From: a virus
Length of the DNA stretch: 26,479 bases
Reading direction: 5' to 3' (one strand)
IMG/VR virus record: IMGVR_UViG_3300025131_000352
Coordinates: 1 to 26,479 of that record
The notes beneath the pieces are model-generated. The model did no database searches, was not told the DNA's origin, and saw only the letters and a list, made by a program, of their open reading frames with translations. How positions within the stretch are numbered: the first letter of the stretch is position 1; each line of letters starts with the position of its first letter. Of the stretch, positions 2,938 to 26,301 are shown piece after piece. Made by a program: the position numbers and the translations under genes.

Positions 2938-2970
2938 AATATAATATCTTTCTTTTTAATGTGTTAAAAC

Positions 2971-3023: not shown

Positions 3024-3063
3024 CTAAAGTAGCAAACAATAAAAAGAGACGTTATATCCCTCT

Positions 3064-3079: not shown

Positions 3080-3102
3080 CTTTGTAGCACAATACACTAT
3101 AA

Positions 3103-3117: not shown

Positions 3118-3122
3118 AATCG

Positions 3123-7675: not shown

Positions 7676-8049
7676 TAACCTACTTTTTGTGCGGGTACAC
7701 CGAGCGCGGGTTTGCCGTTAATGACATCCTGCGCTCGTTGCATACGCTCCGTGAAATCCGAGAAGTTGATATTGTGTTTGGTTTTCTCTTTATCGTATTG
7801 TAGACCGGCGAGGAATTTCGCTGCGTCATTACGTACACGCTCAGTCTCGCCTGTTTCCATGATCTCAAGAAGCACGTTCATGGCCCTGTCACCGATGTCA
7901 TCCAGCTTACTTATTGCTTGCTGTGCTGATGGGGAGTCAGGAGCTACGAGGTCAACGATCTCTTTATCGTAGCGTAGGTCAACGGCAACTTCTTCGTTGG
8001 AGAAGCCCATCTTCTTTAGCTGATAGATTTGCTCGTTAGCTGCGCTCAT
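7675..8049 (-). CDS. Terminase small subunit
   Basis: A 124-residue protein directly before the large terminase. Residues 5-35 (QIYQLKKMGFSNEEVAVDL) look like the helix-turn-helix DNA-recognition part of small terminases. A helical oligomerisation segment follows (AMNVLLEIMETGETERVRNDAAKFLAGL). The length is typical. It recognises phage DNA and regulates the large subunit. It begins with an ATGA overlap with the 1034-residue gene and ends with a TAATG overlap with the large subunit. Confidence 0.85.
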   Translation of the reverse strand: MSAANEQIYQLKKMGFSNEEVAVDLRYDKEIVDLVAPDSPSAQQAISKLDDIGDRAMNVLLEIMETGETERVRNDAAKFLAGLQYDKEKTKHNINFSDFTERMQRAQDVINGKPALGVPAQKVG

Positions 8050-11000
8050 GGCTCTGGTTGTGGCCCGTAGACATCGGGCATAAGTATAGGTGAAATATCA
8101 ATAGTAACTCCTGAGTCTGGCCCACCAAACTGCAATAATGGCGGTATTCCAAAATTCCAATCACCTTTAAGTTGGCCAAATTCGTCGCTTAAAATTTTTG
8201 GGACTATACCGCTACTTAAATCTAACTGTTGTTGTAAAGCCTCTCTATGCTCAGGAGGCATATTTTGCCAAACTTCATCCATGTTTATATTACCTGCTTG
8301 TATTCCTTGTACATTTGTTATAGATATATCTGGCCGAACATCTCCTATACTTAATGTACTCGTCCAATTAGGTTGAAGTGCTAAGTTATTCCACACGTCA
8401 GTAGGGTATGAAAGTGTTGCTGTGTCTATGCCTGTAATGTTACTTAAATCAACGCCTTTAAACGCCAATTTAGATATAGCTAGTTCCATCTTTTCAGCAA
8501 AATCTTTCATTCTGTCTTCTTGAGACATTCCACCCATGTCACCTTGAGCTAAAGATAATGTAGCTAAAGCCGCATCCATTGGCGATGCGTTTGTAACGTT
8601 GTTTTCTTTAAAGTAACCACCAAGACCAGTTAAATCTTTACCAACCCACTTATCGTAAATCCCTTTTACAGCACCGTCTCCAAGCAGACTAGAAATATTT
8701 TGCCTGACCTGCTCTCCTAACTCCTTATCAAGTTGTTCTGTTCTCGCTTGCAGTTCATCTTTGTCTAACGGTACAGAAGGCATAGGTAGATTCGGTGGTT
8801 CTTGCGCCTCAATTTGTTTTGTCGACTGCCCTCCACTAGTAAATGAATCGGGCAGAATATAGCGCCCCGCCGACTGCCCTCCACCAGCACTAACACCTTG
8901 GCCTGTGTAGTCTGGCCCAATTGTAAACGAAGTTTCTGCTGCAGGATTCACCATCTCTATTAAATCTGCTGTAGAAATATTTACTGGGTCGATGTTATTG
9001 TCTGTAATATCAACACTCTGATCGCCAAGGCTATCTGTTTCTATCGTGGGTGGTGGCGGTGTATCATCAATTGTAACACTTTTCACCTCTCCCGTAACAG
9101 GGCCAGCAGATAACGTAGAACCTGCTGAAGGTGCTGACCCAGCAGAAACACCTTGACCAAGATGCGAAGAAGTAGTCTCTTGCTCTTTTGGTATTGTTAC
9201 ATTTACGATAGGTGCAGTTGCCGTGCCGAGTGCTGGACTAGGCCCACGACGAGGAGGTGTTCCAGTTTCCGTTACAGTTTCTTTAAGCACCTCATCTACT
9301 AACGCACTTGTGTCAATCTCACCTACGCTTGGATCGACTTCAGGTTCTGCTGGGATTTGATTAGGGTCTATGCGGAAAGAACTTTGGTCAGAGAAATCTT
9401 TATCGAATGGGCCAGATAATTTATCAAACTCAACCCTATTAAGACCGAACGCATTTTTTACTTTATCTTTAAGGCTTGCATCAGATGTATCATTAAGAAC
9501 AAAATCTGCAACCGCTTTAATTGCTGGACGTAGAACACTAGCTGTAAATTCTACCGAATTGTTATACGCTGGAGCAAATGATGCGCCATCACTCGAATCA
9601 TATTTAGAACTATCATACGTAGATACATTTATGGAATCTTTAACAAAATCATTTAAAGTATTCCCAAGCTGCAAACCTAAAAAAATTGGATGTTGTGATG
9701 CAAGATAAAAAGCTGCTGGCTGTAAATTGCCATAACCTTGTTTATCAAGTTCTTTGAAATCTAATTTCAGTATATCTAAAAGCCCTTTTGCGGATAACCC
9801 CCACGGCTCTCCTTCTGTAACAGAACCACGTCCACCCTTTCTTTCAGTAAAGCGTGTTAGTTCATCAATTACCCCTTCAAGAAGGATTTTGCCATTTGTA
9901 ACAAGCTCTCCAGTTTTTGAGAAAATACCTTTTATTTTTCCAAAACCTTCGTTAAGATTTTTATTTACACCGGGATGCTTATAAAAGAGAAAGTCTTCGA
10001 CACTACCTTCTGGAGAATCGCTGTACAAACCAGTACCCCAAGTATCTCCCCAGAAATCTTCAGCACCTTTCATAAGCTGTTCTTTCTGTGCAGTTTCTAA
10101 GTCTCCGTAGTGTTTGTTTATATTAACTCCCCAGTTATCATTGCCAGGATGAAAAGCTCCTTCTGGTATGTCGTTTATAAGCTCACGTCTGCGCCACTCA
10201 TTCCAGTCAAACTCTTCTCCACCACCGTCCACAACCTCTCCAGTAGGTGCGCCAAAACGTTGATTACCGTAGTACACGTCAGATGGCGCAGCTTTACCTA
10301 AACGTGACCACGGAACTTTTGGCCCTTGGTATATGTCTGGAGCGCGGCCTAGCATACGTTGCCTCTCTGCCGCGTAACCACCTTCTCCACTATATGCAAA
10401 TGCGTTTAGCCCTCCTTGTAAATACTTATTAGCTGAGTTAGGTACTTGTGATGTGTACGGTGTGCGTTCGCTTGTCGCAGTTGCTATAAGCTCGTCAACG
10501 CTACTGTTAGCAAGTAAATTATGGTCAGCAACATCTTCGCTAACTCCTTTGTCTTCTAAATCATATATGTCTTTTCCTCCAGCAGCAGGGTCAACATTAA
10601 CAGTCTTATTAACCCAATCTTTGTATGCAATGTTATTTACTTCCTCTTGTGAAGGCATGGGATCAGTTAAACTTGTTGACGTTGGTGACGTAAGCGGAGA
10701 AGTTTCTCCAAGGATACCACCTGACGTTGTTGTGATTACTCCTGACGATGACGATGGTTGTGATGCTAATATGTCAGTATTTTGCTGCTCAATTTCTGTT
10801 GACTGAGGCTTTGTCGCCATCGCTACAGGTGGGTTTACAAGACCCGTAAGCGAAGGCCATACTGCTTTGTATATGCTATCATAGACGTTACCCCTTCCGA
10901 TATTAGCTCCAGCGAGCTTCTGCAGCGCAATCGGACTATACGCAAAAGGGCCAGTAGAAGGACTACCCATTCCCCCAGGAGTAGGCATATTGACATAACG

Positions 11001-11150
11001 AAAGCCTTTATCATACGAGTCGTTGTACGGACTAAACGCTGCGTCTGGATATGCTTCTCCTAACGCACCCGCCAACGCTTCATAACCACCGTAGTCAGGT
11101 AGTCTTGTAAACGCATCTGTGAAATTAGCCGCGTTATACTCTAGTGCCAT
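8046..11150 (-). CDS. Large 1034-residue protein of unknown function, probable virion or ejected protein
   Basis: The largest gene in the window, and first full-length gene of the sigma54-driven late operon. No enzyme motif was recognised. Composition is uneven. Residues about 120-180 and 620-830 are low-complexity Ser/Thr/Pro/Gly linkers with repeated GQGVSAG, SAGS and GGQSAG units. Residues 240-560 are more globular and rich in Trp, Tyr, Gly and Asp. The C-terminal 200 residues contain helical and Asn/Gln-rich parts. Multi-domain proteins with flexible linkers near packaging genes are often internal virion or DNA-ejection proteins, so that is the working guess. A tail component is possible. 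Start at 11150 overlaps the stop of a 33-codon ORF as TAATG. Confidence 0.8.
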   Translation of the reverse strand: MALEYNAANFTDAFTRLPDYGGYEALAGALGEAYPDAAFSPYNDSYDKGFRYVNMPTPGGMGSPSTGPFAYSPIALQKLAGANIGRGNVYDSIYKAVWPSLTGLVNPPVAMATKPQSTEIEQQNTDILASQPSSSSGVITTTSGGILGETSPLTSPTSTSLTDPMPSQEEVNNIAYKDWVNKTVNVDPAAGGKDIYDLEDKGVSEDVADHNLLANSSVDELIATATSERTPYTSQVPNSANKYLQGGLNAFAYSGEGGYAAERQRMLGRAPDIYQGPKVPWSRLGKAAPSDVYYGNQRFGAPTGEVVDGGGEEFDWNEWRRRELINDIPEGAFHPGNDNWGVNINKHYGDLETAQKEQLMKGAEDFWGDTWGTGLYSDSPEGSVEDFLFYKHPGVNKNLNEGFGKIKGIFSKTGELVTNGKILLEGVIDELTRFTERKGGRGSVTEGEPWGLSAKGLLDILKLDFKELDKQGYGNLQPAAFYLASQHPIFLGLQLGNTLNDFVKDSINVSTYDSSKYDSSDGASFAPAYNNSVEFTASVLRPAIKAVADFVLNDTSDASLKDKVKNAFGLNRVEFDKLSGPFDKDFSDQSSFRIDPNQIPAEPEVDPSVGEIDTSALVDEVLKETVTETGTPPRRGPSPALGTATAPIVNVTIPKEQETTSSHLGQGVSAGSAPSAGSTLSAGPVTGEVKSVTIDDTPPPPTIETDSLGDQSVDITDNNIDPVNISTADLIEMVNPAAETSFTIGPDYTGQGVSAGGGQSAGRYILPDSFTSGGQSTKQIEAQEPPNLPMPSVPLDKDELQARTEQLDKELGEQVRQNISSLLGDGAVKGIYDKWVGKDLTGLGGYFKENNVTNASPMDAALATLSLAQGDMGGMSQEDRMKDFAEKMELAISKLAFKGVDLSNITGIDTATLSYPTDVWNNLALQPNWTSTLSIGDVRPDISITNVQGIQAGNINMDEVWQNMPPEHREALQQQLDLSSGIVPKILSDEFGQLKGDWNFGIPPLLQFGGPDSGVTIDISPILMPDVYGPQPEP

Positions 11151-11251: not shown

Positions 11252-11302
11252 AAGCTTGTTTTGTCTGCTGGGCGAACGTTTCCGCCCTGCTATCTTATAA
11301 AA

Positions 11303-11317
11303 GCAAGATCCATGCCA
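11303..11317 (-). promoter_or_regulatory. Sigma54 (RpoN) promoter for the 1034-residue/terminase/portal operon
   Basis: Read on the minus strand: TGGCATG, GATC, TTGC, preceded by T and followed by TTTTATAAG. One fixed base differs from the consensus (CATG for CACG). GG-N10-GC spacing is exact, and the GATC spacer and T-rich flank are the same as in the promoter at 17542. Predicted start is about 11291, some 140 bases before the 1034-residue gene. Confidence 0.82.
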
Positions 11318-11325
11318 ACTACCTT

Positions 11326-11355
11326 AGAAGTTATGAGAAAGTTCTAGAAGTTGTG
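11326..11355 (+). promoter_or_regulatory. Three 10-bp-phased AGAAGTT-type motifs beside the sigma54 promoter
   Basis: Three units in register every 10 bases begin AGAAGTTA (11326), AGAAAGTT (11336) and AGAAGTTG (11346). The array starts 8 bases from the -24 element. The middle unit has the same AGAAAGTT variant as the middle unit at the capsid promoter. Here the array is on the strand opposite to transcription, so it is inverted relative to the one at 3123-3152. Confidence 0.55.
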
Positions 11356-12138: not shown

Positions 12139-12272
12139 GCCTTTTATTAAAGAAAGTTTTTCCGATAATTACGTAACATCCGATCTCACACGTAAACTGT
12201 TCATAGTAGTTAAACGAACCACGGTGTAGCGTAAAAACGTGTAGCGTAGTTAAAGAATTGTTAGAAGGAAGG

Positions 12273-12504
12273 TGTTAACAAATGACAAACAGTTACAATA
12301 CGCGTTAAATGCCAGCGGCAGTTTACCCAAGTGCGGTAGTGAGGGGGTTTAGTAGGTTAGATAGATATAATATAAAATATATATATGTATATATATATAC
12401 AGTATGTATAAAAAGAAACACTACCCTACAAAGCCTACTGACACACACGGACAACTTGCCGCTATCATTTAATGCGTATTGCACCACCTTGTCATTTGTT
12501 AACA
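12273..12504. repeat. Large imperfect inverted repeat with AT-rich centre
   Basis: Arms of 48 bases (12273-12320 and 12457-12504) align as inverted copies without gaps. They share a perfect 16-base block (TGTTAACAAATGACAA and its complement), a 7-base divergent block, a near-perfect 16-base block and a 7-base block: about 40 of 48 positions agree. The centre (about 12361-12410) is almost entirely A and T and itself nearly palindromic (alternating TA). It could form a cruciform or serve as a melting region flanked by protein sites. Confidence 0.75.
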
Positions 12505-12513
12505 GCCACCACC

Positions 12514-12573
12514 CCACAAAACCCCACGATACACTACAAAACCTTACGTTACGCTACAAAACAAACTGCGTAT
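12514..12573 (+). repeat. Three iteron-like direct repeats with 20-bp period
   Basis: C-(C/T)-ACAAAAC occurs at 12514, 12534 and 12554, exactly 20 bases apart, with partly similar spacers (CC.CACGATA, CTTACGTTA). A related CTACAAAGC occurs at 12424. The array ends just before the rightward early promoter, so it may be iterons of an origin or an operator. Confidence 0.55.
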
Positions 12574-12589
12574 GATACACACTTTTTTC

Positions 12590-12618
12590 TTGACATACTA
12601 CGGGTGATGTGTTATCGT
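12590..12618 (+). promoter_or_regulatory. Sigma70-like rightward early promoter
   Basis: TTGACA (12590-12595), 17-base spacer, TATCGT (12613-12618). The -35 is perfect and the -10 matches at four of six positions including TAT. Predicted start is near 12625. It would drive the 34-residue gene, the 146-residue gene and the helicase. Confidence 0.72.
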
Positions 12619-13233: not shown

Positions 13234-14769
13234 ATGATAACATCTAAAGACGAAACGAAAGTTGTTGATGATGCTATAAAAGATATAGCGTTTCAACATG
13301 ACGCAGCAAAGGAACTCGGCGCTCTTGTACTACGTGAACAAGGTGCGCTACTGCAGGGCGGTACGGGAACGGGCAAGACATACATTACGTGTGAGATGCT
13401 ACGTGACATCCTACCTACGTTAAAGCAAAACGCCAACATAGGCGGTGGGCCAATCCCTGTGCTATGGATTGCTCCCGCTGCTACCATACTCCAAACGCAA
13501 CGTGTACTGCGCTCGTATGGTCTGGCAAAGGATGTGCTAGTCATGTCCTATAGCGCACTAACATCACCGAAGACAGGTGGCTGTATGTACTACGGTACGA
13601 AGACGGTCGTCGAGTTAGGTACAGAACACACGAAGTATACGTGGTCAGATGTTATGCTACCGCGTCTCGTTGTGTTTGATGAGTGTCAGGCGTTAAAGAA
13701 TGACGGCTCGTCGCGTACGAATGTCGCAAGGCAAATCCCAAAAGATAAGGTAAAGCGTCTCTTCATCTCCGCTACACCATACCAGCGTGTATGTGAAGCA
13801 CGTACGGTACTCACAGGATGTGCGATAAAGAGTGAGTATAACGTGTTGCCGTTGTGTGAATCAACTGTGCCGTCTGTGCTACGTTCACTCGCAACGTATG
13901 GTAATCCCACGTCGTACAGCCCACGTGCTATGGAACGTGTGAAAGATGTTATGAAACCGTATACTGTAGCACTCAAGAACGTACGGTTTAAGTACAAGGC
14001 GCGGACGGAGTGTGTTATGATTGATTTCCGTAGCGACAAAGAACGCGCAGCATACAACGAAGCGTACGAAGAGTACCTTAAGTATCTGTACGAGTTGCGT
14101 GGCCAACGTGGTCATGGTATCGTAGCGGCACGACTTGTAGCGATGATGAAATTTCGGCAAAAAGCAGAAGAGATACGTTCGCCGCAAATCGCATCACGTG
14201 CGCGTAATGCTGTCGTAGAGGGATCGCAGGTGATAGTCGGCAGTAACTTTAAGAATATGCTCCGTGGCGTATGGCTGGCACTTACGAAAACGTACAACAT
14301 ACCGGAAGAGCGGATTGGATTTATCACCGGTGGGCAAAGTGCAGAAGAGCGCCAGCGTCACGTAGATGCATTCCAGCGCGGAGAGAAAGACTATATGCTA
14401 CTGACCGTTGCGGCTGGCGGTGTTGGTATTTCGTTACATCACGAAGATATGTACGCTAACGCCAAGCCAAGGCATATCATACTCCCGCCCACGTGGTCTG
14501 CGATAGATCTCATCCAATGCGTAGGTCGATCACACCGACTAACATCATGCAGTAACACATTGCAGGAAGTCATATGGTACAGGAACACCATAGAAGAACG
14601 TGTTGCTGCTGTCGTACAGAATAAGGTAGCGTGCATTAACAAGGCTGTTACCGCAAAGGAACAATGGTCTTCGCTATTCGCACCGGACATAGATGATGAT
14701 CTCGGTAGCATAAACGATGACGGTGACGAAGACGAGGATCACACGCTAGACGAAGGGATGTTTGAATGA
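13234..14769 (+). CDS. SF2 helicase / Snf2-like ATPase
   Basis: A 511-residue protein with the ordered motifs of superfamily 2 helicases: Walker A GGTGTGKT (42-49), motif Ia PAATILQTQ, motif II DECQ (149-152), motif III SAT (179-181), and in the second lobe GGVGISLH (motif V) and QCVGRSHR (428-435, motif VI). The C-terminal 25 residues are very acidic. The DECQ box and overall arrangement resemble Snf2/Rad54-like and phage UvsW-like enzymes that remodel DNA or branched intermediates. The exact substrate is not visible. It is the first large early gene. The ATG follows AAGAAAG with poor spacing. Confidence 0.85.
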   Translation: MITSKDETKVVDDAIKDIAFQHDAAKELGALVLREQGALLQGGTGTGKTYITCEMLRDILPTLKQNANIGGGPIPVLWIAPAATILQTQRVLRSYGLAKDVLVMSYSALTSPKTGGCMYYGTKTVVELGTEHTKYTWSDVMLPRLVVFDECQALKNDGSSRTNVARQIPKDKVKRLFISATPYQRVCEARTVLTGCAIKSEYNVLPLCESTVPSVLRSLATYGNPTSYSPRAMERVKDVMKPYTVALKNVRFKYKARTECVMIDFRSDKERAAYNEAYEEYLKYLYELRGQRGHGIVAARLVAMMKFRQKAEEIRSPQIASRARNAVVEGSQVIVGSNFKNMLRGVWLALTKTYNIPEERIGFITGGQSAEERQRHVDAFQRGEKDYMLLTVAAGGVGISLHHEDMYANAKPRHIILPPTWSAIDLIQCVGRSHRLTSCSNTLQEVIWYRNTIEERVAAVVQNKVACINKAVTAKEQWSSLFAPDIDDDLGSINDDGDEDEDHTLDEGMFE

Positions 14770-15627: not shown

Positions 15628-15875
15628 AACAAGCATTCACACAAAGCGAATTCGGTAACGGATTCACAATACTCTTCGCTAACAAATGGAGTGTTAGCGT
15701 ACAATGGTCGGAGCATCACAAGTGCGACGGCGGAATTAGAACAGCGGAAGTTGCTGTGCTAGATCCAGACGGTATGTTCTGGACTATCGTAGACGATGAA
15801 CTAAAGTTAACAGGTGACGTAATGCCATACACTACGTCAGAGGAGTTAGTAAACATAATAAATAAAGTATCATGA
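15624..15875 (+). CDS. Hypothetical 83-residue protein, paralogue of 15182-15484
   Basis: It begins MKQAFTQSEFGNGFTILFAN. It shares the core pattern of the gene two places upstream (V-x-V-x-W, C/S-D-G-G, A-E-V-x-V-x-D), so the pair probably arose by local duplication with the 48-residue gene between them. It ends in a helix (TSEELVNIINKVS). Function unknown. Overlaps with both neighbours are 4 bases. Confidence 0.72.
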   Translation: MKQAFTQSEFGNGFTILFANKWSVSVQWSEHHKCDGGIRTAEVAVLDPDGMFWTIVDDELKLTGDVMPYTTSEELVNIINKVS

Positions 15876-16231
15876 GCACAGCAATATCAAGTAACGCAGC
15901 TCGCGCTTTCGTACAAGGCAAGCGCTTCAGTAGGTCTAACACCAACGTTAGACGGAACATCGACGGTAGCGTAGAGATGCGACTATGGGATAACCTTATC
16001 GCACGACATACCGTAGAGGACGGAACACAAGTAACAATGGCAGGATGGGGTACAGCTACCACACGTGCAAGACTTAACGCTATCACAAACGAGTTAGGTA
16101 TGCGCGCAGGTTTCTGGCAACACAAAGGCGATCAGTTTTATGGTACGCACAACTCGGTAGTTAGTGGAGATGCTTGTAGCGTCTGCAACCGTATCATATC
16201 AACCACAGAATGGGTACAAATAGCACGATGA
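15872..16231 (+). CDS. Conserved-type phage protein of unknown function (119 residues)
   Basis: The middle (LWDNLIARHTVEDGTQVTMAGWGTATTRARLNAI) matches a pattern common in small phage proteins: 'AGW.T.TT..RLN' followed by an aromatic-rich segment (GFWQHKGDQFYG). The C-terminal CSVC is a lone Cys pair that could be part of a metal site but is not sufficient alone. Function unknown. ATGA overlaps connect it to both neighbours. Confidence 0.72.
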   Translation: MSTAISSNAARAFVQGKRFSRSNTNVRRNIDGSVEMRLWDNLIARHTVEDGTQVTMAGWGTATTRARLNAITNELGMRAGFWQHKGDQFYGTHNSVVSGDACSVCNRIISTTEWVQIAR

Positions 16232-16431: not shown

Positions 16432-16766
16432 ATATAACTAGTGACTTCTATCACAACTTCTTTCGTCAGTATCCACTAGACAACAGTTTGCGTAGGATAC
16501 CTGTCACATATGCGAGAACTGACATAGCATTATTAGCTCCACGCACACACGCAGGGCAACCGTACAACGAGCGCACAGTTATCTTCACGGATAATAATGC
16601 GTACGTTAAGATTAAAAAACAAGAAGGCTGGGAAGCTATGCTAAAAGATCATTATGATGCACGTGTAGCGAGTGACAAAGGCCCACCGCGCACGGATAAT
16701 AGTTGGGTACGTAAAATAGTCGAACCTATCTACGCTAAGATGCGTCGGAGTCGTAAGAAATACTGA
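16419..16766 (+). CDS. Hypothetical 115-residue protein
   Basis: It begins MPDLDITSDFYHNFFRQY and has a central beta region (ERTVIFTDNNAYVKIKK). The C-terminus is basic and helical (WVRKIVEPIYAKMRRSRKKY). Function is not recognised. Its stop TGA is part of TGATG, giving the start of the sigma54 activator, so the two are probably translated together. Confidence 0.68.
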   Translation: MPDLDITSDFYHNFFRQYPLDNSLRRIPVTYARTDIALLAPRTHAGQPYNERTVIFTDNNAYVKIKKQEGWEAMLKDHYDARVASDKGPPRTDNSWVRKIVEPIYAKMRRSRKKY

Positions 16767-17539
16767 TGACTACGCCTACTGAAATGAAAAGGTTAACAAA
16801 ACGACTTGCTGCTTACAGTACAGTTGATTCCTGTATGCGTAAGTTAACGCAAGATGCTATAACATTATCATTTCGTAACGAACCTGTATTAATTACAGGT
16901 GATACAGGTACAGGCAAGGAGGTAATAGCTACAATACTACACGGCACACGTGTAGATAACATCACAACAGTTAACACAACAGCCGTCACGGATACGCTAT
17001 TCGAGAGCGAGTTATTCGGTCACGTTAAAGGATCATTCACCGGCGCTTACTGCGATAGAGAAGGTTTAGTAGCAAGCGCCGGTGATGGTACGTTATTCCT
17101 CGATGAGATAGGTGATATGCCTGTTACATTACAAGCAAAGATACTCCGACTCATACAGTTCGGTACGTATCGTAACGTCGGTGGCGACAAACTGCTCACA
17201 GCAAAATGCCGTATCATAGCGGCAACGTGTAAAAATGTACCACAGTTAATAGAAGATAAGCTGTTCCGTGAGGATCTTTACTATCGTCTATCAACATTTA
17301 GGCTACACCTTACACCATTACGCGACAGACGGCACGACATACACCATTACTTAGCAAACCATAAGTTATGGTTTGACATGACAGAGAGTAAACGTAAACA
17401 TTTCGCAGAGTACGCTGACAACGAACCAATTCACGGTAATTACCGTGAGTTAGAACAAATCATGCTACGATATGAAGTTTTAGAAAAAATGCCTGAGTTA
17501 ACTTACGCTCTAAAAAATAAAATTTTAGAAGTTAACTGA
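16766..17539 (+). CDS. Minimal sigma54-dependent transcription activator (bacterial enhancer-binding protein, AAA+ only)
   Basis: A 257-residue protein that is almost entirely the RpoN-interacting AAA+ domain. Motifs in order: Walker A GDTGTGKE (45-52), ESELFGH (80-86), the sigma54-contacting loop as GSFTGA (89-94; usual form GAFTGA), Walker B with GTLFLDEIGDMP (108-119), arginine fingers in FREDLYYRL (167-175), and GNYREL (224-229; usual GNVREL). These are characteristic of PspF/NtrC-type activators, which hydrolyse ATP to open sigma54 promoters. It lacks an N-terminal regulatory domain, so it may be constitutively active. It also ends about 28 residues after GNYREL, with no helix-turn-helix, so it may act from solution or via a partner. 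A consensus sigma54 promoter follows its stop by 2 bases. Confidence 0.93.
   Translation: MTTPTEMKRLTKRLAAYSTVDSCMRKLTQDAITLSFRNEPVLITGDTGTGKEVIATILHGTRVDNITTVNTTAVTDTLFESELFGHVKGSFTGAYCDREGLVASAGDGTLFLDEIGDMPVTLQAKILRLIQFGTYRNVGGDKLLTAKCRIIAATCKNVPQLIEDKLFREDLYYRLSTFRLHLTPLRDRRHDIHHYLANHKLWFDMTESKRKHFAEYADNEPIHGNYRELEQIMLRYEVLEKMPELTYALKNKILEVN
17527..17534 (+). promoter_or_regulatory. AGAAGTTA motif 7 bases upstream of the sigma54 promoter
   Basis: AGAAGTTA ends 7 bases before TGGCACG, the same distance as at the capsid promoter. It lies in the last codons of the activator gene. A second identical octamer lies downstream of the start site at 17592-17599. The 10-bp array is poor here: only one good upstream copy, preceded by an A/T-rich unit. 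Confidence 0.45.
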
Positions 17540-17541
17540 CT

Positions 17542-17556
17542 TGGCACGGATCTTGC
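17542..17556 (+). promoter_or_regulatory. Consensus sigma54 (RpoN) promoter
   Basis: TGGCACG, GATC, TTGC, with T before and TTTATATATAG after: a match at every fixed position of the -24/-12 consensus with exact spacing. Predicted start is near 17568, about 66 bases before the gene at 17634. It sits just after the gene for the sigma54 activator, in a 94-base gap. Confidence 0.93.
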
Positions 17557-17633
17557 TTTATATATAGTATCTGGCCCCAACTAGGGGGTTTAGAAGTTAA
17601 GTAGAACCCTAGCATAAAAGTAGAACATAAGAT

Positions 17634-18041
17634 ATGGCACAACATATTGAACAAACATATAAGGACGGAGACTGGAAGGGATTCAAGTTTACCGTGAAGC
17701 AATTCGATAGCACAGTAGAGGCTGTCGAAGGTCTGGGCGAGGATAACGTACTCGCGCTCGTTAACCAACAGGTTGCATCTCGCATACGTTCTAAAGTTAA
17801 GAACGGTTTGCCGAAAGGTCTTAGCGGGGATGATCTCGCTAACGCACAGCAGCGTTTGTTAGATAAGCACACCGATGGTGTGTTGTTTAACGCTGACGAT
17901 GCTAACGGATGGCGACCTGACCAACGTACCGAAACGCCTACTGCCCTGTTCAAACAGGCGAAGGAAGCGTTCAAGGCTGGCGATACTGCCAAGGGTGCGG
18001 AACTGCTGACTCGTATGCAAGAGCTTCTCGAAGCTTCGTAA
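17634..18041 (+). CDS. Unknown 135-residue protein expressed from a dedicated sigma54 promoter
   Basis: A soluble, mainly helical protein (MAQHIEQTYKDGDWKGFKF onwards) with acidic and Gly/Asp-rich loops and a C-terminal helical hairpin (LFKQAKEAFKAGDTAKGAELLTRMQELLEAS). No family was recognised. It is alone between a consensus sigma54 promoter and a strong terminator, so it should be made late and in quantity even though it lies in the early arm. Candidates are a late virion component, a DNA-associated protein, or a lysis/takeover factor. The sequence does not choose between them. The leader contains a CTAGGG/CCCTAG stem. The start has no Shine-Dalgarno. Confidence 0.8.
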   Translation: MAQHIEQTYKDGDWKGFKFTVKQFDSTVEAVEGLGEDNVLALVNQQVASRIRSKVKNGLPKGLSGDDLANAQQRLLDKHTDGVLFNADDANGWRPDQRTETPTALFKQAKEAFKAGDTAKGAELLTRMQELLEAS

Positions 18042-18058
18042 ACGATAAGCATATCGTA

Positions 18059-18094
18059 GAGAGGGACGGCCAGTAAAAGCTGTCCCTCTCTTTT
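18059..18094 (+). terminator. Strong rho-independent terminator after the sigma54-driven gene
   Basis: A 12-bp stem (18059-18070 with 18079-18090, one G-U pair) has an 8-base loop and is followed by TTTT. It begins 17 bases after the stop at 18041, closing the single-gene unit that starts at the sigma54 promoter. Confidence 0.88.
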
Positions 18095-18123
18095 ACTCAT
18101 AACTGCTAACAAGATATTTTTAT

Positions 18124-18693
18124 ATGGATGATATTATAGATATTGTTGTAGGGAAATTAAAGAAACCACAAAATTTAGCTGCACCAAAGCACCACCGCTC
18201 ATCGTACACAAAAGATACAGCCGCAATGGTACAGCCTATCATGGACAAACTGTTAGGCGACGGCGCAGATGTATTCGTACCAGCAGCTAACACAGGCTAT
18301 AGTGCAAACACTTTATACGGTAAGTTAAACGATGGCTTGCTATGGTTAATGCACAACACAGCGGAAAAGGATAAGAACGAAGCGTATCGTATGTTACGTA
18401 CGCAAGTCTCCATGCGCAAAATGGACGACGGCGTTTTGATATATTTTAAAGCTGCCGTGCGTGACATCAAGCGTACGCCAAGTAAACCGGCGCTTGAAGG
18501 TGTGTCAGCCGATAGCGTAAAGTGGCGGCATGACTTACTCTCGTGGCTGCAACGTTCACAAGAAGGTGAGATGTTCAAGGCAGACGTTACGACAGACGAC
18601 GACGATCAGCGTTGGGTATACGATAACATAGCCATACATGCACCTAGCGCAGAAGTTATCTTCAGCGACGACAACATTAAACTCATACGCTAA
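18124..18693 (+). CDS. Hypothetical 189-residue protein
   Basis: It begins MDDIIDIVVGKLKKPQNL. It contains a segment of the form SANTLYGKLNDGLLWL and a later beta-like segment (GVLIYFKAAVRDIKR), with a high content of Asp, Lys and Arg. The C-terminal EVIFSDDNIKLIR ends in a TAATG overlap with the next gene. No enzyme motif was recognised. No clear promoter lies in the 30 bases between the terminator at 18094 and this gene, so it probably depends on read-through from upstream or on an undetected promoter. Confidence 0.7.
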   Translation: MDDIIDIVVGKLKKPQNLAAPKHHRSSYTKDTAAMVQPIMDKLLGDGADVFVPAANTGYSANTLYGKLNDGLLWLMHNTAEKDKNEAYRMLRTQVSMRKMDDGVLIYFKAAVRDIKRTPSKPALEGVSADSVKWRHDLLSWLQRSQEGEMFKADVTTDDDDQRWVYDNIAIHAPSAEVIFSDDNIKLIR

Positions 18694-18968
18694 TGACAAT
18701 AGAAACACTACTCGAATGTGAAGTTAGCGTACTGGAGAAGATGACCGACGATGAGTTGCTCACACACTTCCAACCATACCTTGTCGTATGTCAGCCACCT
18801 GTTGACGAGCGTAAGACAAAGGTAGTTAAAATAAAACGTAAGTCTGCAAAGGTTTCGTCCAGCGTCAAGCGTACGCTAGAGGAACAGATGAAGGAGCTAG
18901 CTGACTTACATAGCATAGACTTAGACGCGGAGAAAGCGCGGAACTTACTACCACCAAACTTACGATGA
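18693..18968 (+). CDS. Hypothetical 91-residue protein
   Basis: An acidic N-terminal helix (ETLLECEVSVLEKMTDDELLTHF) is followed by a Lys-rich linker (RKTKVVKIKRKSAKVSSSVKR) and a C-terminal helix ending PPNLR. The basic middle may contact nucleic acid. It lies between a TAATG overlap and an ATGA overlap with the nuclease gene, so it may be a partner of that enzyme. This is inference only. Confidence 0.68.
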   Translation: MTIETLLECEVSVLEKMTDDELLTHFQPYLVVCQPPVDERKTKVVKIKRKSAKVSSSVKRTLEEQMKELADLHSIDLDAEKARNLLPPNLR

Positions 18969-19894
18969 TTACTTTAGATAAAACAACAGACGGACGTTAC
19001 ATAGTTAAGATAGATGCATCGTTGTACACACAGTCAGCTTGCCCACGCAGGATGTGGTACATGGGCGGACGAGGCTTACGTTATGACGGTAAGTCACACA
19101 AGATGGAGTATGGTACAGCGTTTCATAAAGCGTTGCAGGAATACTACACCACGTTTAACACAACGAAAGCTGTTGCCGTCGCCGTGGAGCACTACACGCA
19201 ACCTGACATACACATACCAGACAATGACTTCCGTGACGTAGGACATCTCATTGCTACATTACATCAATACTTCAAGGAGTATGAAATGATTGATGGCCTA
19301 AGACCTGTAGTAGTTGACGGCGAGCCGTTACTTGAGCAGCGGTTTGCTGTACCGTACTTCACCGACGGCAACCTACTGGACATAGTATTGTGTGGCACGG
19401 TGGATATGATAGGTACGTTCAACGGCATTAACGTAATCGTTGACCACAAGACAACCGCGCTTATGCAAGTGGAGAAGTACCTCGACTCATACCAGAACTC
19501 ACCACAAATGATGTTCTACAGTATGATATATAAGCAACTGTTTCCTGACGAAGACCGTGGTGTAGTTATCAACGGCATCTTCCTGTCACGTACAGGTAAG
19601 AATAAGTTCCAGCGATCTACGATAATCACATTCCCCAATCACGTACTGGATGAGTTCGCCGCGCATTTGCATAACATAGTCACCGACTTCGCTAACAGTT
19701 TATACGTTGTGATAGCAGACGGCAAAGATCCAGAGCAGGAGTTCCTACCAAACTTCAACTGCTGTCAGACAAAGTTTGGCGAATGTAACTTCTCACCTGT
19801 GTGTACTACGCCACGGCAAGATGATAGAGAGACTCTCGTTACGTCGTTGTTCACCACAACTAACACATACGATCCACTAAAATTCCAAGCATGA
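18965..19894 (+). CDS. Cas4/RecB-like PD-(D/E)XK nuclease with probable Fe-S cluster
   Basis: A 309-residue protein. Conserved features in order: C26 in SACPRRMW, GTAFHKALQEYY (50-61, including His54), GTVDMIG with Asp147, the DHK triad part (160-162), and Gln/Tyr residues near 177-185 of motif QxxxY. Cysteines follow at 266/267, 274 and 280. One N-terminal and three C-terminal cysteines around the nuclease fold is the arrangement that binds a 4Fe-4S cluster in Cas4 and AddB. Such enzymes cut or resect DNA ends in recombination. Neighbouring Sak4-like ATPase and SSB-like genes fit a phage recombination module. There is no CRISPR array or cas1/cas2 here. Confidence 0.85.
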   Translation: MITLDKTTDGRYIVKIDASLYTQSACPRRMWYMGGRGLRYDGKSHKMEYGTAFHKALQEYYTTFNTTKAVAVAVEHYTQPDIHIPDNDFRDVGHLIATLHQYFKEYEMIDGLRPVVVDGEPLLEQRFAVPYFTDGNLLDIVLCGTVDMIGTFNGINVIVDHKTTALMQVEKYLDSYQNSPQMMFYSMIYKQLFPDEDRGVVINGIFLSRTGKNKFQRSTIITFPNHVLDEFAAHLHNIVTDFANSLYVVIADGKDPEQEFLPNFNCCQTKFGECNFSPVCTTPRQDDRETLVTSLFTTTNTYDPLKFQA

Positions 19895-20148
19895 CAGACC
19901 AAGAAATACGCGACGCAGCTTTACGTAAGTTTAAAATACTTGCACCGCGCAAGTTCAACGCTGGCATAGCAGAACACAATCCCGACGGTACAAAAGGAAT
20001 GTGGCTTATGACTCCAGAGCAACTTGTAGATAGCGCGGAGGAAGAAGTAATAGATCTTTGGCACTACATACAAGTGCTTAAAGCAAAAATAAAAGAGCAA
20101 GACGCTCTCATACTACAACTGAAACGAACAATAGCAAAACAAACATGA
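19891..20148 (+). CDS. Hypothetical 85-residue protein, possibly MazG-like
   Basis: The segment QLVDSAEEEVIDLWHYIQVL (44-63) resembles the metal-binding helix of small MazG-like nucleotide pyrophosphohydrolases (E-x-x-D at 52-55). The first E-x-x-E pair of that family is not clear, so the assignment is tentative. The C-terminus is a coiled-coil-like helix. It overlaps the nuclease gene and the next gene by 4 bases each. Confidence 0.6.
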   Translation: MTDQEIRDAALRKFKILAPRKFNAGIAEHNPDGTKGMWLMTPEQLVDSAEEEVIDLWHYIQVLKAKIKEQDALILQLKRTIAKQT

Positions 20149-20333
20149 ATGACGAACAAGACATATTAGCTTTATCTAAAGCTATAATAGAGATAAGTCA
20201 AGACAACCCAACCAGAATCATACACGCTATAGACGGTGTGAGTGAAAGCATAGAAAAACTTAACTCAACTTTAGCGGAACAGCTAAGACAAGTTAAAGTT
20301 GAGTTAGATATTATTTCTAGCACCATGCGATAA
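20145..20333 (+). CDS. Hypothetical 62-residue helical protein
   Basis: It is almost wholly helical (MNDEQDILALSKAIIEISQ, later ESIEKLNSTLAEQLRQVKVELDII), with a coiled-coil pattern in the second half. It starts in an ATGA overlap. Function unknown. Probably a small oligomeric accessory protein. Confidence 0.62.
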   Translation: MNDEQDILALSKAIIEISQDNPTRIIHAIDGVSESIEKLNSTLAEQLRQVKVELDIISSTMR

Positions 20334-20356
20334 CGAACAATAGCAAAACAAGAACA

Positions 20357-21007
20357 ATGAGTAAAGCAATAATAGGTATCGTAGGTAGTAGTGGCACAGG
20401 TAAGTCTACCTCGCTACGCAACCTGCCAACCAACACAACACACATAATAGATCTTGAGCGTAAGGGTATGCCCTTCCCCAAGAAGTTCCCACACACATCA
20501 TTCTGCGCTAGCGTTAAAGAGTTTAACGATGCGTTAAGCGTAGCACTAGCAGACGAAAGCTGCGAAGTGATAGTCATTGAGTCGTTCACAAAGTACGTTG
20601 AGATACTACATACGTTATCTGATAGGTCTTTCAAGGGCTTTGATATATGGAACTACTACAATAAGGAGATCCGTACTATGCTAGATAAAGTTAAGAACGA
20701 TCACGCTGTCGTGATATTCACGGCGATTGACGAGATCGTGGAACTAGCGCAGCCCAGCGGCGAAGCATTCAACGTACGTCGCATCAAGGTGCAAGGTAAG
20801 CAACACGCTGGTTGTATAGAGAAGGAACTCCTTATGGTACTGTTCACGGAAGTTAAACGTGACAAAGAAGGTAACACACGCTACGCGTTCCAGACGAACA
20901 GCGACGGTATCACATCTGCGAAAACCCCGATGGGTATGTTCGATAAAATGTACATAGACAACGACGTTAATGAAGTCATAGAGAAAGCTAAGAAATATTA
21001 TGCCTGA
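20357..21007 (+). CDS. Sak4/AAA_24-type P-loop ATPase (RecA-like recombination protein)
   Basis: A 216-residue single-domain ATPase: Walker A GSSGTGKS (10-17), LIDLERKG-like segment after it, and Walker B VIVIESFTKY at about 72-81. Later come strands AVVIFTAIDEI and RRIKVQGKQ. The size and pattern match the phage AAA_24/Sak4 group, single-domain RecA/Rad51 relatives used for strand annealing or exchange with a phage SSB. The SSB-like gene lies three places downstream. Exact activity is inferred from family resemblance. Start at 20357 has no Shine-Dalgarno. Confidence 0.78.
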   Translation: MSKAIIGIVGSSGTGKSTSLRNLPTNTTHIIDLERKGMPFPKKFPHTSFCASVKEFNDALSVALADESCEVIVIESFTKYVEILHTLSDRSFKGFDIWNYYNKEIRTMLDKVKNDHAVVIFTAIDEIVELAQPSGEAFNVRRIKVQGKQHAGCIEKELLMVLFTEVKRDKEGNTRYAFQTNSDGITSAKTPMGMFDKMYIDNDVNEVIEKAKKYYA

Positions 21008-21380
21008 TCAAACACATAACATAGACTGGAGTAAGTTTGTTGATGAGAAGTTTGCTATGCTAAAAGATACAGCAAAGCAACAGTATAACAACGTTGATGA
21101 AATGTCAGTAACGCTATCAGAGATAATCGAAACCGCTGAGGAGCTTCAGAATGATATAAGTGATCTGCAAAATGACGTAGATGAAAACTATATCGTACGA
21201 CCGAAGTGGCCAGAATACTTTGGCATCGCCGAACTCACCGACATACTCATTACTACATTACCCACACCTAACTACGGTAAACAAGAAGACTCTCTGCGAC
21301 AGTTGCATGAGCTACGCCAAATGTGTGCTCATGCAAACATCGTGGGCTTAGACGACCTAATAAAATACATAAAGCAATGA
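21000..21380 (+). CDS. Hypothetical 126-residue protein with coiled coil
   Basis: It has a coiled-coil region at about 35-60 (SEIIETAEELQNDISDLQNDVDEN), followed by a small globular part containing VRPKWPEYFGIAELTDIL. Family not recognised. It overlaps the ATPase gene by 8 bases and the next gene by 4, so it probably belongs to the same recombination operon. Confidence 0.68.
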   Translation: MPDQTHNIDWSKFVDEKFAMLKDTAKQQYNNVDEMSVTLSEIIETAEELQNDISDLQNDVDENYIVRPKWPEYFGIAELTDILITTLPTPNYGKQEDSLRQLHELRQMCAHANIVGLDDLIKYIKQ

Positions 21381-21628
21381 GTAAAGAAGAAAAAGAATAC
21401 GATAACATGGTTATCGGCGTGGCAACAGCTACGTATAAGCAAGCGCAGCTTATAGCAAACAAGTTGGATATTAGTAAGCAGGATTCGTTTCTGTTACTAC
21501 AAACCATTACGATAGAGAAGCTCACGTATCTTATAGCACAAATGCTCGAAGGAATTTCCTCCGCAAACAATAGGAGTGCGGTTACGGAGGAACATACAAA
21601 CAAAGACACTCCCCACATAGTAACATAA
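21377..21628 (+). CDS. Hypothetical 83-residue protein
   Basis: Start set at 21377 (MSKEEKEYDNMVIGV) because of the ATGA overlap. A longer in-frame start inside the preceding gene is unlikely. Helical, Lys/Glu-rich, with a segment LDISKQDSFLLLQTITIEKLTYLIAQML and a polar, probably flexible tail. Function unknown. Confidence 0.65.
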   Translation: MSKEEKEYDNMVIGVATATYKQAQLIANKLDISKQDSFLLLQTITIEKLTYLIAQMLEGISSANNRSAVTEEHTNKDTPHIVT

Positions 21629-21637
21629 CATAACATA

Positions 21638-22123
21638 ATGGCAATCATCAACTTAGATGAAATCGCAGATAGCGTAAGACCCTATCTAAAGAAGGACACG
21701 TACACAGCACGAATTCTTAGTGCTGAGTTTACGCAAAGCAAGGCCGGTGCGCCTATGGTAGTGATGCAATGGGAGCTAGCTGCTCCTGAGTCAATCGAAG
21801 ATGGCATGAGTGGTAAGACCGTACGAATTGCAGGTTTGCAGTTCCGCGACTACCTATCGTTTAGTGAGAAGGCTAAGGAGTTTACGTTTCGGCGTATCAA
21901 AGCCCTGCACAAAGCGTTAGAACTCACGCCAGAGTTTGATGACGAAGATCCTGACGTAGATCAGTACGCTGGTTTAGCTGCTGACGTTACGATAGAGACT
22001 GAGCAGCAAGCACAGACGAACGATGATAATTCGCCTGTCCTTGACAACAACGGCGATCCTGTAATGAACAATAATTACAGGCTCAAACGTGTGCTTCGTT
22101 TGAATAACGACCACACGCTGTAA
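21638..22123 (+). CDS. DUF669-like protein, probable ssDNA-binding partner of the recombinase
   Basis: A 161-residue protein. The N-terminal two thirds (DTYTARILSAEFTQSKAGAPMVV then MQWELAAP, later GKTVRIAGLQFRDYL) has the strand pattern of phage DUF669-type proteins. These are often encoded with Sak4/AAA_24 ATPases and are suspected single-stranded-DNA binders. Acidic, Asn/Asp-rich residues occur near the end (FDDEDPDVDQ, NNNGDPVMNNN), which resembles the acidic tails of SSBs in position, but it ends with a short basic strand. The ATG follows a triple ACATA repeat and no Shine-Dalgarno. Confidence 0.68.
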   Translation: MAIINLDEIADSVRPYLKKDTYTARILSAEFTQSKAGAPMVVMQWELAAPESIEDGMSGKTVRIAGLQFRDYLSFSEKAKEFTFRRIKALHKALELTPEFDDEDPDVDQYAGLAADVTIETEQQAQTNDDNSPVLDNNGDPVMNNNYRLKRVLRLNNDHTL

Positions 22124-22132
22124 CACACACTT

Positions 22133-22196
22133 GTAGTATAGCGGTACACGGCAGCTATTAAGACGCTGCGCAGTTCATTGATCGCCGCTATACTAC
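22133..22196 (+). ncRNA. Structured RNA element A upstream of the polymerase gene
   Basis: A closing helix of 12 perfect pairs (22133-22144 with 22185-22196) encloses a 5-bp hairpin GCAGC/GCTGC (22151-22155, 22165-22169) with loop TATTAAGAC. The junction has GG-TACA on the 5' side and TTGATCG-CC on the 3' side, both shared with element B. ATTAA of the loop could pair with TTGAT (22178-22182) as a pseudoknot. No class of RNA that I know fits. Confidence 0.65.
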
Positions 22197-22200
22197 GTTT

Positions 22201-22346
22201 AATTTATGTTGTAGCACATGGGTACAAGATTGCTATTAAGATGCAACTGGGTTCAGGCTGCTATCATGACGGCCTCATGTAACGTTTTATGGTTGACGTT
22301 ACATGGCATTACCTGAGTTGATCGCCTGTGTGCTACAACATAAATT
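22201..22346 (+). ncRNA. Structured RNA element B in the polymerase leader
   Basis: A closing helix of 18 perfect pairs (22201-22218 with 22329-22346) continues through two G-U and two G-C pairs to 22222/22325, 22 bp in all. Inside are hairpin TTGC/GCAA with loop TATTAAGAT (22230-22246), a TCAGG/CCTGA pairing (22253-22257, 22312-22316), and a 9-bp hairpin CATGTAACG/CGTTACATG (22276-22284, 22297-22305). Junction TACA and TTGATCG match element A. It ends 6 bases before the polymerase ATG, leaving no room for a Shine-Dalgarno. Confidence 0.7.
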
Positions 22347-22352
22347 AGACTC

Positions 22353-24728
22353 ATGCCTTTAACCATACAACATACATCCGCACAGCTACCGTACAAGGGG
22401 TTAACAGTAATACTAGGTAAGCCATCGCGCTTCGACCGCGCCCAGTTACTTAGTGGATACGCAGGGCAGTTATTCTACAACGCCCTTAATCCTATACCAC
22501 GGCAAACTATCGACGTTACACTCGCCGATAGCGTAAACCAATACCCCATACGCGAGGGTACTAAAGTCGTGCTGCTACTAGGGCAGAAGGCGTTAGACTT
22601 ATTTAAGTCTGGCGTTACGTTAGATGAACAACGCGGTTGCCCGTTCATCATCGACGGCATAACGTACGTATGTTCGTACGAACCGCAAGAATCTGTTGAT
22701 CGTATGGCATACTTCAATCCTAACGATGCGGATAACGTAGGCGCAGAGAATGACAAGGGCCGACACGGTAGAACACGACGGCCCAATCGTAAGTTCTGGC
22801 TGTCACGTGACGTTAAGAAAGCCGTAGGATACTTGACCATCCCGCCAGCAGTTACGAAGGCCAAACATATCTTGTGGCCACGCGCCGATGACGTAATCGC
22901 GGTACTACAAACACGTAAGAACGAGACTATGTACTTTGACATAGAAACAAACCGTTCATTAGAGTTAACGTGCTTCGGATTTTCGTTTGACGACAAAGAA
23001 GCGTGGTGTGTACCTATGGTAATATCGCCGTTCGCCGGTTACTACTATGAGGATACGCCACATATCCTACGTGCACTAGCTGTAGCCATGCGTGACAATG
23101 AGGTGGTCATACACAATGCGCTGTTCGATCTCTTCGTCCTAGCGTACAAGTATGGCATCCCCGCACCGCGTAAGGTGTATGATACAATGCTCGCGCATCA
23201 CAGGTTATTCCCTGAGGTAGAGAAATCCCTCGGCCATTGTCTTGCACTATACACAGATCAACCGTATCATAAAAACGAGGGCGTGTTCGATCCCAAGAAC
23301 CACGATCAACGTGAGAGTTTGTACGAATACAACGCTAAAGATGTTATCTCTATGGCGTTACTCAAGCCTCAAATAGATGCAACAGCCGCAAACTTCAAGG
23401 CAACTGATAGCGTACGTCAAGTTAACGAAAGTGTTGTGCCATATCTCACGGCCATGCTACAAGGGATTAAGTATGACGTAGAGAAACTCAACAATATCAT
23501 AAAACATAACGATAGGTATCAGAATGAACTGTTGCGTTTCCTGCGCTTGCTAACAGGCAACGACCTTAATCCTAACAGCCCAAAGCAAGTATCAACATAC
23601 TTGTACAATCGCCTCGGCTACAAGAAGCCGTCGAAAGATGTAACGTCCGAGAAGAACTTACTACAGATTAGGTTAAAGTACCCTAACAACCCTATCCCTA
23701 CAATCATACTACGCTACCGCGCTTACGCAAAAGAAAGTGGGCAGCTAAAGTTTCCGCCGTGGAAAGGTGATCGCATAACAACATCGTACAACCTAGCGGG
23801 AACAACGTCGTACCGGCTAGCATCTCGGCGCTTGCTTGGCGAGTGGGGTACTAACGTACAGAATTTCCCGAAGAAACTACGTAAGCTGTTCGTACCAGAC
23901 GAGGGTAAAGTATTCGTGCAAGCCGATCAGTCAGGCGCGGAGGCACTCGTCGTAGCGTATCTATGCACTGCAGGAAATTTCCGACGCTTGTTCGACCACG
24001 GCGTTAAGTCACACGTTTACGTGGCATTGCGGTTATTTGCAGAAGTTTGGGAGGCGCGTCTCGGTGAATCTATTAAACCGTACACAGATGTAGACGTAGC
24101 AGATCTCGTCCAGAAGCCACGGTGGAAAGAACTACGCGACATTATAGCATCCTCCGATACGTGGCCAGCCGCTGAACGCTACTATTTCATGGCCAAGATG
24201 GTATGCCACGCATCCAACTACGGTATGAAAGCGCCGACGTTCCGTGTGAACGTGCTGCAGAAGTCGCATGGCGCGGTTAACCTCACAAACAAACAAGCTA
24301 CATACTTCCTCGAAACATACCACGCATTATTCCCTGAGATACGTAAGTGGCATAGAGATACGATAGAGAAGTTAAAGAAGGAACGTATGCTACGCAACCT
24401 CTTCGGCTACCCTCGGATGTTTACGCAGACTGTAGAGCCGTCTATGTTCAAGGAAGCATACGCATTCGTACCACAATCTACCGTAGGTACGATAACAAAC
24501 ATGGCGTTCACCGACTTGTATCACAACGAACGTATCATAGAGTTGGGTGCGGATGTGATACAGAATAATCACGATAGCGTTTTACTGCAATGTAAGCCAG
24601 AGGTTGCGGAGGAGGTTTGTGCGCTAGCGTGTGAAGCACTTAACCGCGAGATGATCTCACCATATGGTGAGAAGTTTAAGATGCGCTCCGAAGCGTGTGT
24701 TGGTAATAACTGGGGAGAGATGGACTAA
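22353..24728 (+). CDS. Family A DNA polymerase with 3'-5' exonuclease and UDG-like N-terminal region
   Basis: A 791-residue replicative polymerase. Residues 1-130 resemble a uracil-DNA-glycosylase-like fold (LGKPSRFDRAQLLSGYAGQLF; later RGCPFIIDGITYVCSYEPQE), as found fused to some phage polymerases, probably without activity. The exonuclease has ExoI FDIET (D196, E198), ExoII VIHNALFDLF and ExoIII YNAKDV. Polymerase motif A is ADQSGAEAL with D525, motif B has K615 and Y623-G624, and motif C is NNHDSV with D741. Two departures from E. coli Pol I are visible: the position four after the motif-B lysine is His619, not Phe/Tyr, and motif C reads HDS in place of HDE. It replicates the phage genome. 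Its leader is the structured RNA element B. Confidence 0.92.
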   Translation: MPLTIQHTSAQLPYKGLTVILGKPSRFDRAQLLSGYAGQLFYNALNPIPRQTIDVTLADSVNQYPIREGTKVVLLLGQKALDLFKSGVTLDEQRGCPFIIDGITYVCSYEPQESVDRMAYFNPNDADNVGAENDKGRHGRTRRPNRKFWLSRDVKKAVGYLTIPPAVTKAKHILWPRADDVIAVLQTRKNETMYFDIETNRSLELTCFGFSFDDKEAWCVPMVISPFAGYYYEDTPHILRALAVAMRDNEVVIHNALFDLFVLAYKYGIPAPRKVYDTMLAHHRLFPEVEKSLGHCLALYTDQPYHKNEGVFDPKNHDQRESLYEYNAKDVISMALLKPQIDATAANFKATDSVRQVNESVVPYLTAMLQGIKYDVEKLNNIIKHNDRYQNELLRFLRLLTGNDLNPNSPKQVSTYLYNRLGYKKPSKDVTSEKNLLQIRLKYPNNPIPTIILRYRAYAKESGQLKFPPWKGDRITTSYNLAGTTSYRLASRRLLGEWGTNVQNFPKKLRKLFVPDEGKVFVQADQSGAEALVVAYLCTAGNFRRLFDHGVKSHVYVALRLFAEVWEARLGESIKPYTDVDVADLVQKPRWKELRDIIASSDTWPAAERYYFMAKMVCHASNYGMKAPTFRVNVLQKSHGAVNLTNKQATYFLETYHALFPEIRKWHRDTIEKLKKERMLRNLFGYPRMFTQTVEPSMFKEAYAFVPQSTVGTITNMAFTDLYHNERIIELGADVIQNNHDSVLLQCKPEVAEEVCALACEALNREMISPYGEKFKMRSEACVGNNWGEMD

Positions 24729-24730
24729 AA

Positions 24731-25978: not shown

Positions 25979-25992
25979 GCTGATAAAAAACT

Positions 25993-26301
25993 ATGTATAG
26001 AAAAGATACGTTCGATATTACGATAGAGTTAGACAACTACGAGGAGATTATGCCCGATGTCTACTATACGGAAGACAGTACCGTAACTTACTCTTGTGAA
26101 ATCATGGGTGATTCTGGTACTGATGAGGGTGCACATACAGAAGTGCATGCAGCGGATGACGACATAGCATACGTAAATGTCGACGGTAACTCAGTTATAT
26201 TATCTGAGGAGAATGCAAAGCTGTGCCGTGACAAAGCGTTCGCTGCTACGGAAGAACGCGCACACGAAGAAGCATGGGAGGCACGGTATGACGACAGGTA
26301 A
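25993..26301 (+). CDS. Hypothetical 102-residue acidic protein
   Basis: It is strongly acidic (Asp/Glu-rich throughout, e.g. ITIELDNYEEIMPDVYYTEDS). The first half is beta-like, and a C-terminal helix ends EERAHEEAWEARYDDR. Family not recognised. It follows the ATPase gene by 14 bases and overlaps the next by 14. Confidence 0.66.
   Translation: MYRKDTFDITIELDNYEEIMPDVYYTEDSTVTYSCEIMGDSGTDEGAHTEVHAADDDIAYVNVDGNSVILSEENAKLCRDKAFAATEERAHEEAWEARYDDR

Follow-up and report, generated by a model that had tools for sequence, protein, structure and literature searches.

Gene organization of the window and its relatives

The window, i.e. the whole 26,479-nucleotide stretch of viral DNA analysed in this work (IMG/VR record IMGVR_UViG_3300025131_000352), contains two diverging gene blocks. 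On the plus strand a helicase gene (13234-14769, +), part of a presumed early operon, lies upstream of the gene of a minimal sigma-54 activator that consists of an AAA+ core only (16766-17539, +). The activator gene is followed by a putative sigma-54 promoter (P1) and by an operon (17634-26301, +) encoding a PD-(D/E)XK nuclease, an AAA_24 ATPase, a family A DNA polymerase, a DUF3987 protein and small genes. On the minus strand the first gene past a second such promoter (P2) codes for a 1034 aa protein of unknown function (8046-11150, -), and the same strand carries the genes of the terminase large subunit (6125-7675, -; PHROG phrog_2, E 5e-30), a probable portal (4441-6132, -), a probable, acidic scaffold (3149-4270, -) and the major capsid protein (1456-2937, -), the latter presumably driven by a third promoter, P3. 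The portal had no family match and was, like the scaffold, assigned from its position; both genes occur lineage-wide. The capsid protein, which is kept in 12 relatives, was assigned an HK97-like fold from fold matches. Its AF2 model was of low confidence (pLDDT 50); the PDB matches with E < 1e-3 were mostly HK97-type phage capsids, the best one being that of phage N4 (E 1e-6).

The lineage was studied with 12 fetched genome-sized contigs (43-55 kb), which together with the window make 13 genomes. Nearly all 12 contigs share with the window the terminase, portal, scaffold, capsid, helicase, nuclease, polymerase and DUF3987 genes. All sequences are metagenomic, and the ORFs were called mechanically. 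Among sequenced phages we found neither a DNA-level relative of the window nor a relative of a capsid protein from the lineage.

The window has a few further features. Where the two gene blocks diverge, an AT-rich segment (12258-12519) contains a long imperfect inverted repeat (83-nt arms, 71%), a possible origin or early control region. A 22-nt inverted repeat (95% complementary, 110 nt apart) lies directly before the DNA polymerase gene (22197-22350), and positions 15872-16231 (+) gave a match to Kyano_Gp96, a cyanophage protein family in Pfam (E 2e-10).

The activator has the catalytic core of a bEBP and lacks accessory domains

The activator gene is an open frame of 257 aa running from ATG to TGA. 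In a profile search residues 22-180 matched Pfam Sigma54_activat (PF00158, E 2.2e-51), and all catalytic motifs are present: Walker A (GDTGTGKE), the switch Asn (N70), the L1 loop (GSFTGA), Walker B (FLDE), the arginine-finger region (FREDLYYRL) and sensor II (GNYREL). The full RpoN-activating AAA+ core described in the initial annotation is thus there, and the protein satisfies the criteria of the family of bacterial enhancer-binding proteins, or bEBPs (sigma-54 interaction AAA+ domain, GAFTGA-type L1 loop, Walker A/B, arginine-finger region, sensor II). In an alignment of 13 relatives (34-92% identity) the key motif residues were invariant or nearly so, except for positions 2 and 3 of the L1 loop. 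The AF2 model (pLDDT 85, pTM 0.80) had as top PDB fold matches the AAA+ domains of FleQ, NtrC1, NtrC4, FlrC, ZraR and PspF, so the proposed structural comparison with PspF and NtrC1 came out positive for both.

Two features that are typical of bEBPs, albeit not universal, are missing: the C-terminal HTH and the N-terminal regulatory domain. Only 44 residues precede Walker A, without a match to a regulatory domain, and in a domain search none of the 13 activators gave a match to HTH_8 or to a response-regulator, GAF or PAS domain. There is no room for a DNA-binding domain downstream either, the distance from the activator stop to the next plus-strand ORF being 94 nt. This short gap, together with a sigma-54 promoter starting 2 nt past the stop codon, excludes a missed downstream frame supplying another function, which would have refuted the initial reading.

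The protein belongs to PHROG phrog_7998 (E 7.5e-37), which is annotated only as unknown function. Unrelated AAA+ ATPases are common in phages, and one could imagine that the protein has another job, for example in DNA replication or packaging, and resembles sigma-54 activators only incidentally. We find this hardly credible: the sigma-54-specific L1 loop is retained, the nearest viral structures in BFVD are only distantly similar AAA proteins of different types (ClpA, Lon, MoxR-like and others, 12-23% identical), and the pairing with promoters described below would be left unexplained.

Relative to homologs that are 87-92% identical the dN/dS of the activator gene was 0.13-0.18, a sequence-based estimate indicating that it is under purifying selection. 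This bears on the idea that the truncated protein is an inhibitor, which silences the sigma-54 regulon of the host by assembling with host activators into nonfunctional mixed rings. Missing accessory domains would fit a dominant-negative protein as well, but the catalytic residues are all conserved under this selection, and such an inhibitor would also silence the phage's own sigma-54 promoters before key genes. We regard it as very unlikely.

The minimal activators form a separate class

In the IMG/VR loci two classes separate cleanly. The minimal phage proteins are about 240-336 aa long, their chain stops at or just past sensor II, and in nearly all of them not more than 15 aa follow the AAA+ profile. 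Even relatives whose activator is only 36% identical to that of the window stop at sensor II without exception. Ordinary full-length activators have 65-160 further residues; the contigs carrying them are possibly bacterial or prophage. There was one bEBP match per phage record, i.e. no companion full-length bEBP is encoded. In a tree of 70 AAA+ domains, which took in only 18 full-length sequences, the minimal class appeared as one label change (support 77), a topology compatible with a single capture from bacteria. L050, when used as search query, gave no match except itself.

Matches of the activator in annotated phage records were mostly bacterial contigs. The phage-like exception is MT121960, the human-gut phage DP SC_2_H4_2017, which encodes a divergent short sigma-54 activator (L064, 22348-23260). 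This record is without sigma-54 sites, and its activator groups with the full-length activators on a long branch.

It was initially suggested that GSFTGA, as a variant of the GAFTGA loop, may affect which promoters open. This was not borne out. GSFTGA is common in the family and is present also in ordinary full-length bEBPs (L040, L047, L052), and since the family switches among GSFTGA, GAFTGA and GSYTGA with unchanged promoters, we do not consider it distinctive and reject it as a functional variant. More strongly altered loops (NSFTGA, GAFTDA, GAFTNA and SFTGS) were seen in the minimal activators L117 (in G008), L121, L122 and L114. Strong sigma-54 sites lie close to L117 and L121, which could be useful for testing loop function.

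Sigma-54 promoters accompany the activator throughout the lineage

Exact matches to TGGCRY-N5-TTGCW occur in the window at 17542 (+), 11302 (-), 3102 (-) and 9573 (-). The last one is intragenic; the other three are intergenic and oriented toward operons, and correspond to the three promoters mentioned in the initial annotation. P1 (TTGGCACGGATCTTGCT, 17541-17557, +) starts 2 nt past the activator stop and precedes the replication genes; its position is kept in relatives. P2 (TTGGCATGGATCTTGCT, 11302-11318, -) stands before the packaging/structural operon and is kept in G001, G002, L024, L026 and L032, whereas P3 (TTGGCACGGTTATTGCT, 3102-3118, -), located before the capsid gene, has a counterpart in all 13 genomes. 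With TGGCAY-N5-TTGCW elements upstream of genes the sigma-54 promoter criterion is satisfied; dependence on rpoN is inferred. A scan for sigma-70 promoters yielded a count near chance and weak candidates only, one of them a possible early promoter (TTGACA-17-TATCGT, 12590-12618, +).

Sites were scored with a weight matrix whose weights were set by hand from the published consensus. Fifty non-redundant loci contained 49 strict sites (1.8 expected) and 93 sites of at least 15 bits (6.7 expected), and in 33 of the 50 a same-strand site lies 2-263 bp past the activator stop. The free positions of the strict pattern also follow the consensus, with G after TGGCAY in 72% and T before it in 66%. No strict sites were found near full-length activators (0/15). 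Sites above threshold were lacking in L101, L122, L129 and some other relatives, whose sequence stretches may be partial.

In the genome-sized set a site was present 152-194 bp upstream of the capsid gene in 13/13 genomes (0.0035 expected per genome), the weakest scoring 13.7 bits (G008). The activator gene is followed by a site within 210 bp in 11 of the 13, and at about 440 and 690 bp in the other two. The 13 genomes have 70 sites of at least 15 bits, as against 2 in the reversed-sequence control, and 54 of the 70 fall in the non-coding 7.3% of the sequence (p 3e-47). The search for homologs with neighboring -24/-12 sites in other phages, suggested initially as a check, succeeded across the phage lineage. 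As judged from these sequence comparisons, the activator-promoter pairing is conserved in the whole lineage, which strongly supports the reading as a sigma-54 activator and with it the central claim, that a phage AAA+-only activator is paired with sigma-54 promoters of the phage.

It must be considered whether the activator is a chance host gene, or the contig mis-assembled, with promoter-like sites that are there by coincidence. Many "phage" database matches are indeed bacterial contigs in phage records. Conservation has already refuted this reading, and we regard it as practically ruled out: dozens of independent contigs that share a phage backbone carry the activator amid phage genes, it groups apart from the full-length activators, and the excess of sites is far above chance.

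A box adjacent to the -24 element

At P1 a promoter-proximal box, TAGAAGTT (17526-17533, +), starts 15 nt upstream of TTGGCA. Two inverted copies of TAGAAGTT (11325-11332 and 11345-11352, +; together 11325-11352) lie upstream of P2, and P3 has the box AGAAGTTA (3125-3132, -) in the same register as P1. In the window's clade the consensus YARAAGAT occupies the positions 15 to 8 nt ahead of TTGGCA, a fixed register that holds in most of 18 non-redundant promoters, and is enriched upstream of the sites (observed vs. expected: window 3/0.08, G001 4/0.06, G002 6/0.14). The recurrence is not explained by common descent of a single locus across genomes, since P1, P2 and P3 are separate loci. Some other genomes, such as G011 and G004, have repeated words of their own upstream of the sites, differing from YARAAGAT; some of these words are marginal. 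The box is the best hint at how an activator without a DNA-binding domain locates its promoters.

A separate DNA-binding partner, encoded by phage or host, might read the box, the activator alone being weak or inactive. The fixed register and enrichment of YARAAGAT, and the genomes with upstream words of their own, speak for such a partner, as does FleT, a known bEBP without both accessory domains that works complexed with FleQ (PMC7175178, PMC7277832). On the other hand, the early small genes tested had no recognizable DNA-binding domain (Pfam, lenient threshold), no small early gene was common to all 13 genomes at the sensitivity used, and AAA+-only fragments can act from solution (PMC3844500). 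We hold a partner to be a real possibility, at somewhat under an even chance; it refines the explanation favored below rather than opposing it, and our confidences in the two overlap. The description "stand-alone" is uncertain, since the fixed-register box hints at a further DNA-reading component.

The leader RNA of the capsid gene

The leader between P3 and the capsid gene (2938-3091, -) contains one or, usually, two hairpins with AGGGCA loops, in the capsid mRNA of the window at 3064-3079 and 3009-3022 (-; together 3009-3079). GCTTCT or a similar word usually precedes each hairpin, and GCUU could form a pseudoknot by pairing with the loop. The hairpins are also present in G001-G007, G009, G012, L137-L141 and L179. 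Stem covariation was strong in 21 distinct copies (89.5% paired, score 0.763; controls 0.143 shuffled and at most 0.137 slid). An Rfam search of the window gave nothing meaningful, and as an RNA element the hairpin is apparently new. Just before the capsid start (2960-2995, -) the hairpins are followed, in the clade of the window, by a stem and a T-run that resemble a terminator or attenuator.

Discussion

We consider it highly probable that a phage-owned bEBP, cut down to its ATPase core, opens the host RNAP-sigma-54 at phage promoters. The architecture of the activator, the promoters, their placement and conservation, and the lack of a phage sigma-54 are observations. ATPase activity, RpoN dependence, timing and activation without a host signal are inferred, there being no expression, ATPase or transcription data. 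The activator would be expressed early, probably from host sigma-70 promoters, for which we have weak candidates only, and would assemble, judging from its family and motifs, into an ATP-driven ring. The ring is predicted to remodel host RNAP-sigma-54 waiting in closed complexes at the -24/-12 promoters of the phage, and would turn on the replication genes from P1, the packaging/structural genes from P2 and the capsid gene from P3. Lacking a DNA-binding domain, it may act from solution, or be guided by a factor recognizing the box just upstream of the -24 element; the fixed register of this box suggests an extra component, which our explanation leaves unnamed. As it has no sensor domain, no host signal should be needed. 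That the activator is always on and captures all host holoenzyme, as was proposed initially, is a plausible inference by analogy with the engineered AAA+-only DctD250, which is constitutive and promiscuous (PMC3844500).

A more far-reaching reading, to which we would give an even chance, is that middle/late transcription of this large uncultured phage lineage relies on host sigma-54 polymerase, that the activator without DNA-binding domain is aimed by the box next to the -24 element without a remote enhancer, and that it was captured once from bacteria and then kept.

A phage-encoded sigma-54 was rejected, as none of the 21 phage records tested has a sigma-54 gene (0/21); the host must therefore supply it. 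Two capsid relatives (L178, L179) were binned into a Deltaproteobacteria MAG, which has rpoN and several full-length bEBPs, and into a methanogen (archaeal) MAG. Archaea have no sigma-54, thus at least the methanogen MAG is probably mis-binned. We do not accept a host from MAG binning for the phage of the window: the binning may be wrong, and host rpoN has not been shown. It is a prediction of this work that the hosts of the lineage have rpoN, and that its loss would protect them.

Phages are known to redirect host RNAP by new sigma factors, anti-sigma factors, sigma-70 activators, antitermination or a polymerase of their own. Sigma-54 polymerase is the only bacterial form that needs an ATP-burning activator, and its use, if true, would be a new takeover route with a tight off/on switch. 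The natural AAA+-only activators, with many variants, some of them with altered GAFTGA loops, offer material for studying how sigma-54 polymerase opens and whether it needs a remote enhancer; phrog_7998, of unknown function so far, would thereby gain a function.

It is instructive to compare the phage activator with known systems. T4 gp55, T7 RNA polymerase, P2 Ogr and lambda Q are phage proteins that switch on middle or late genes. They do so by supplying a new sigma or polymerase, by activating sigma-70 transcription or by antitermination, and none of them is known to act via sigma-54. The activator would resemble them as a phage protein that turns on middle or late genes, and would differ in the sigma-54 route. 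In the open-access literature we found no precedent for a phage sigma-54 activator, and annotated phages had none except the divergent MT121960, which agrees with the initial impression that no well-characterized phage is known to use this strategy. The activator is a member of a known protein family; its reduced form and its use in phages are new.

Among cellular proteins, PspF is a bEBP without regulatory domain, with the same AAA+ fold. CtcC of Chlamydia trachomatis, like the phage protein, has no DNA-binding domain and was proposed to be a general activator of sigma-54 polymerase, but it is cellular and works in a two-component system with CtcB (PMC12282069). FleT of Rhodobacter (Cereibacter) sphaeroides, described as the sole known bEBP without regulatory and DNA-binding domains (PMC7175178), lacks both accessory domains as the phage activator does, and acts in complex with FleQ (PMC7277832). 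FleT is a cellular flagellar regulator, whereas the phage gene has no adjacent full-length activator and its paired promoters belong to virus genes. A further parallel is DctD250, an engineered AAA+ fragment of DctD, which activates sigma-54 promoters without an enhancer and was at one promoter nearly tenfold weaker than the cognate activator (PMC3844500). Both consist of the AAA+ core only; DctD250 is a laboratory construct, whereas the activator described here is a natural phage protein with promoters of its own.
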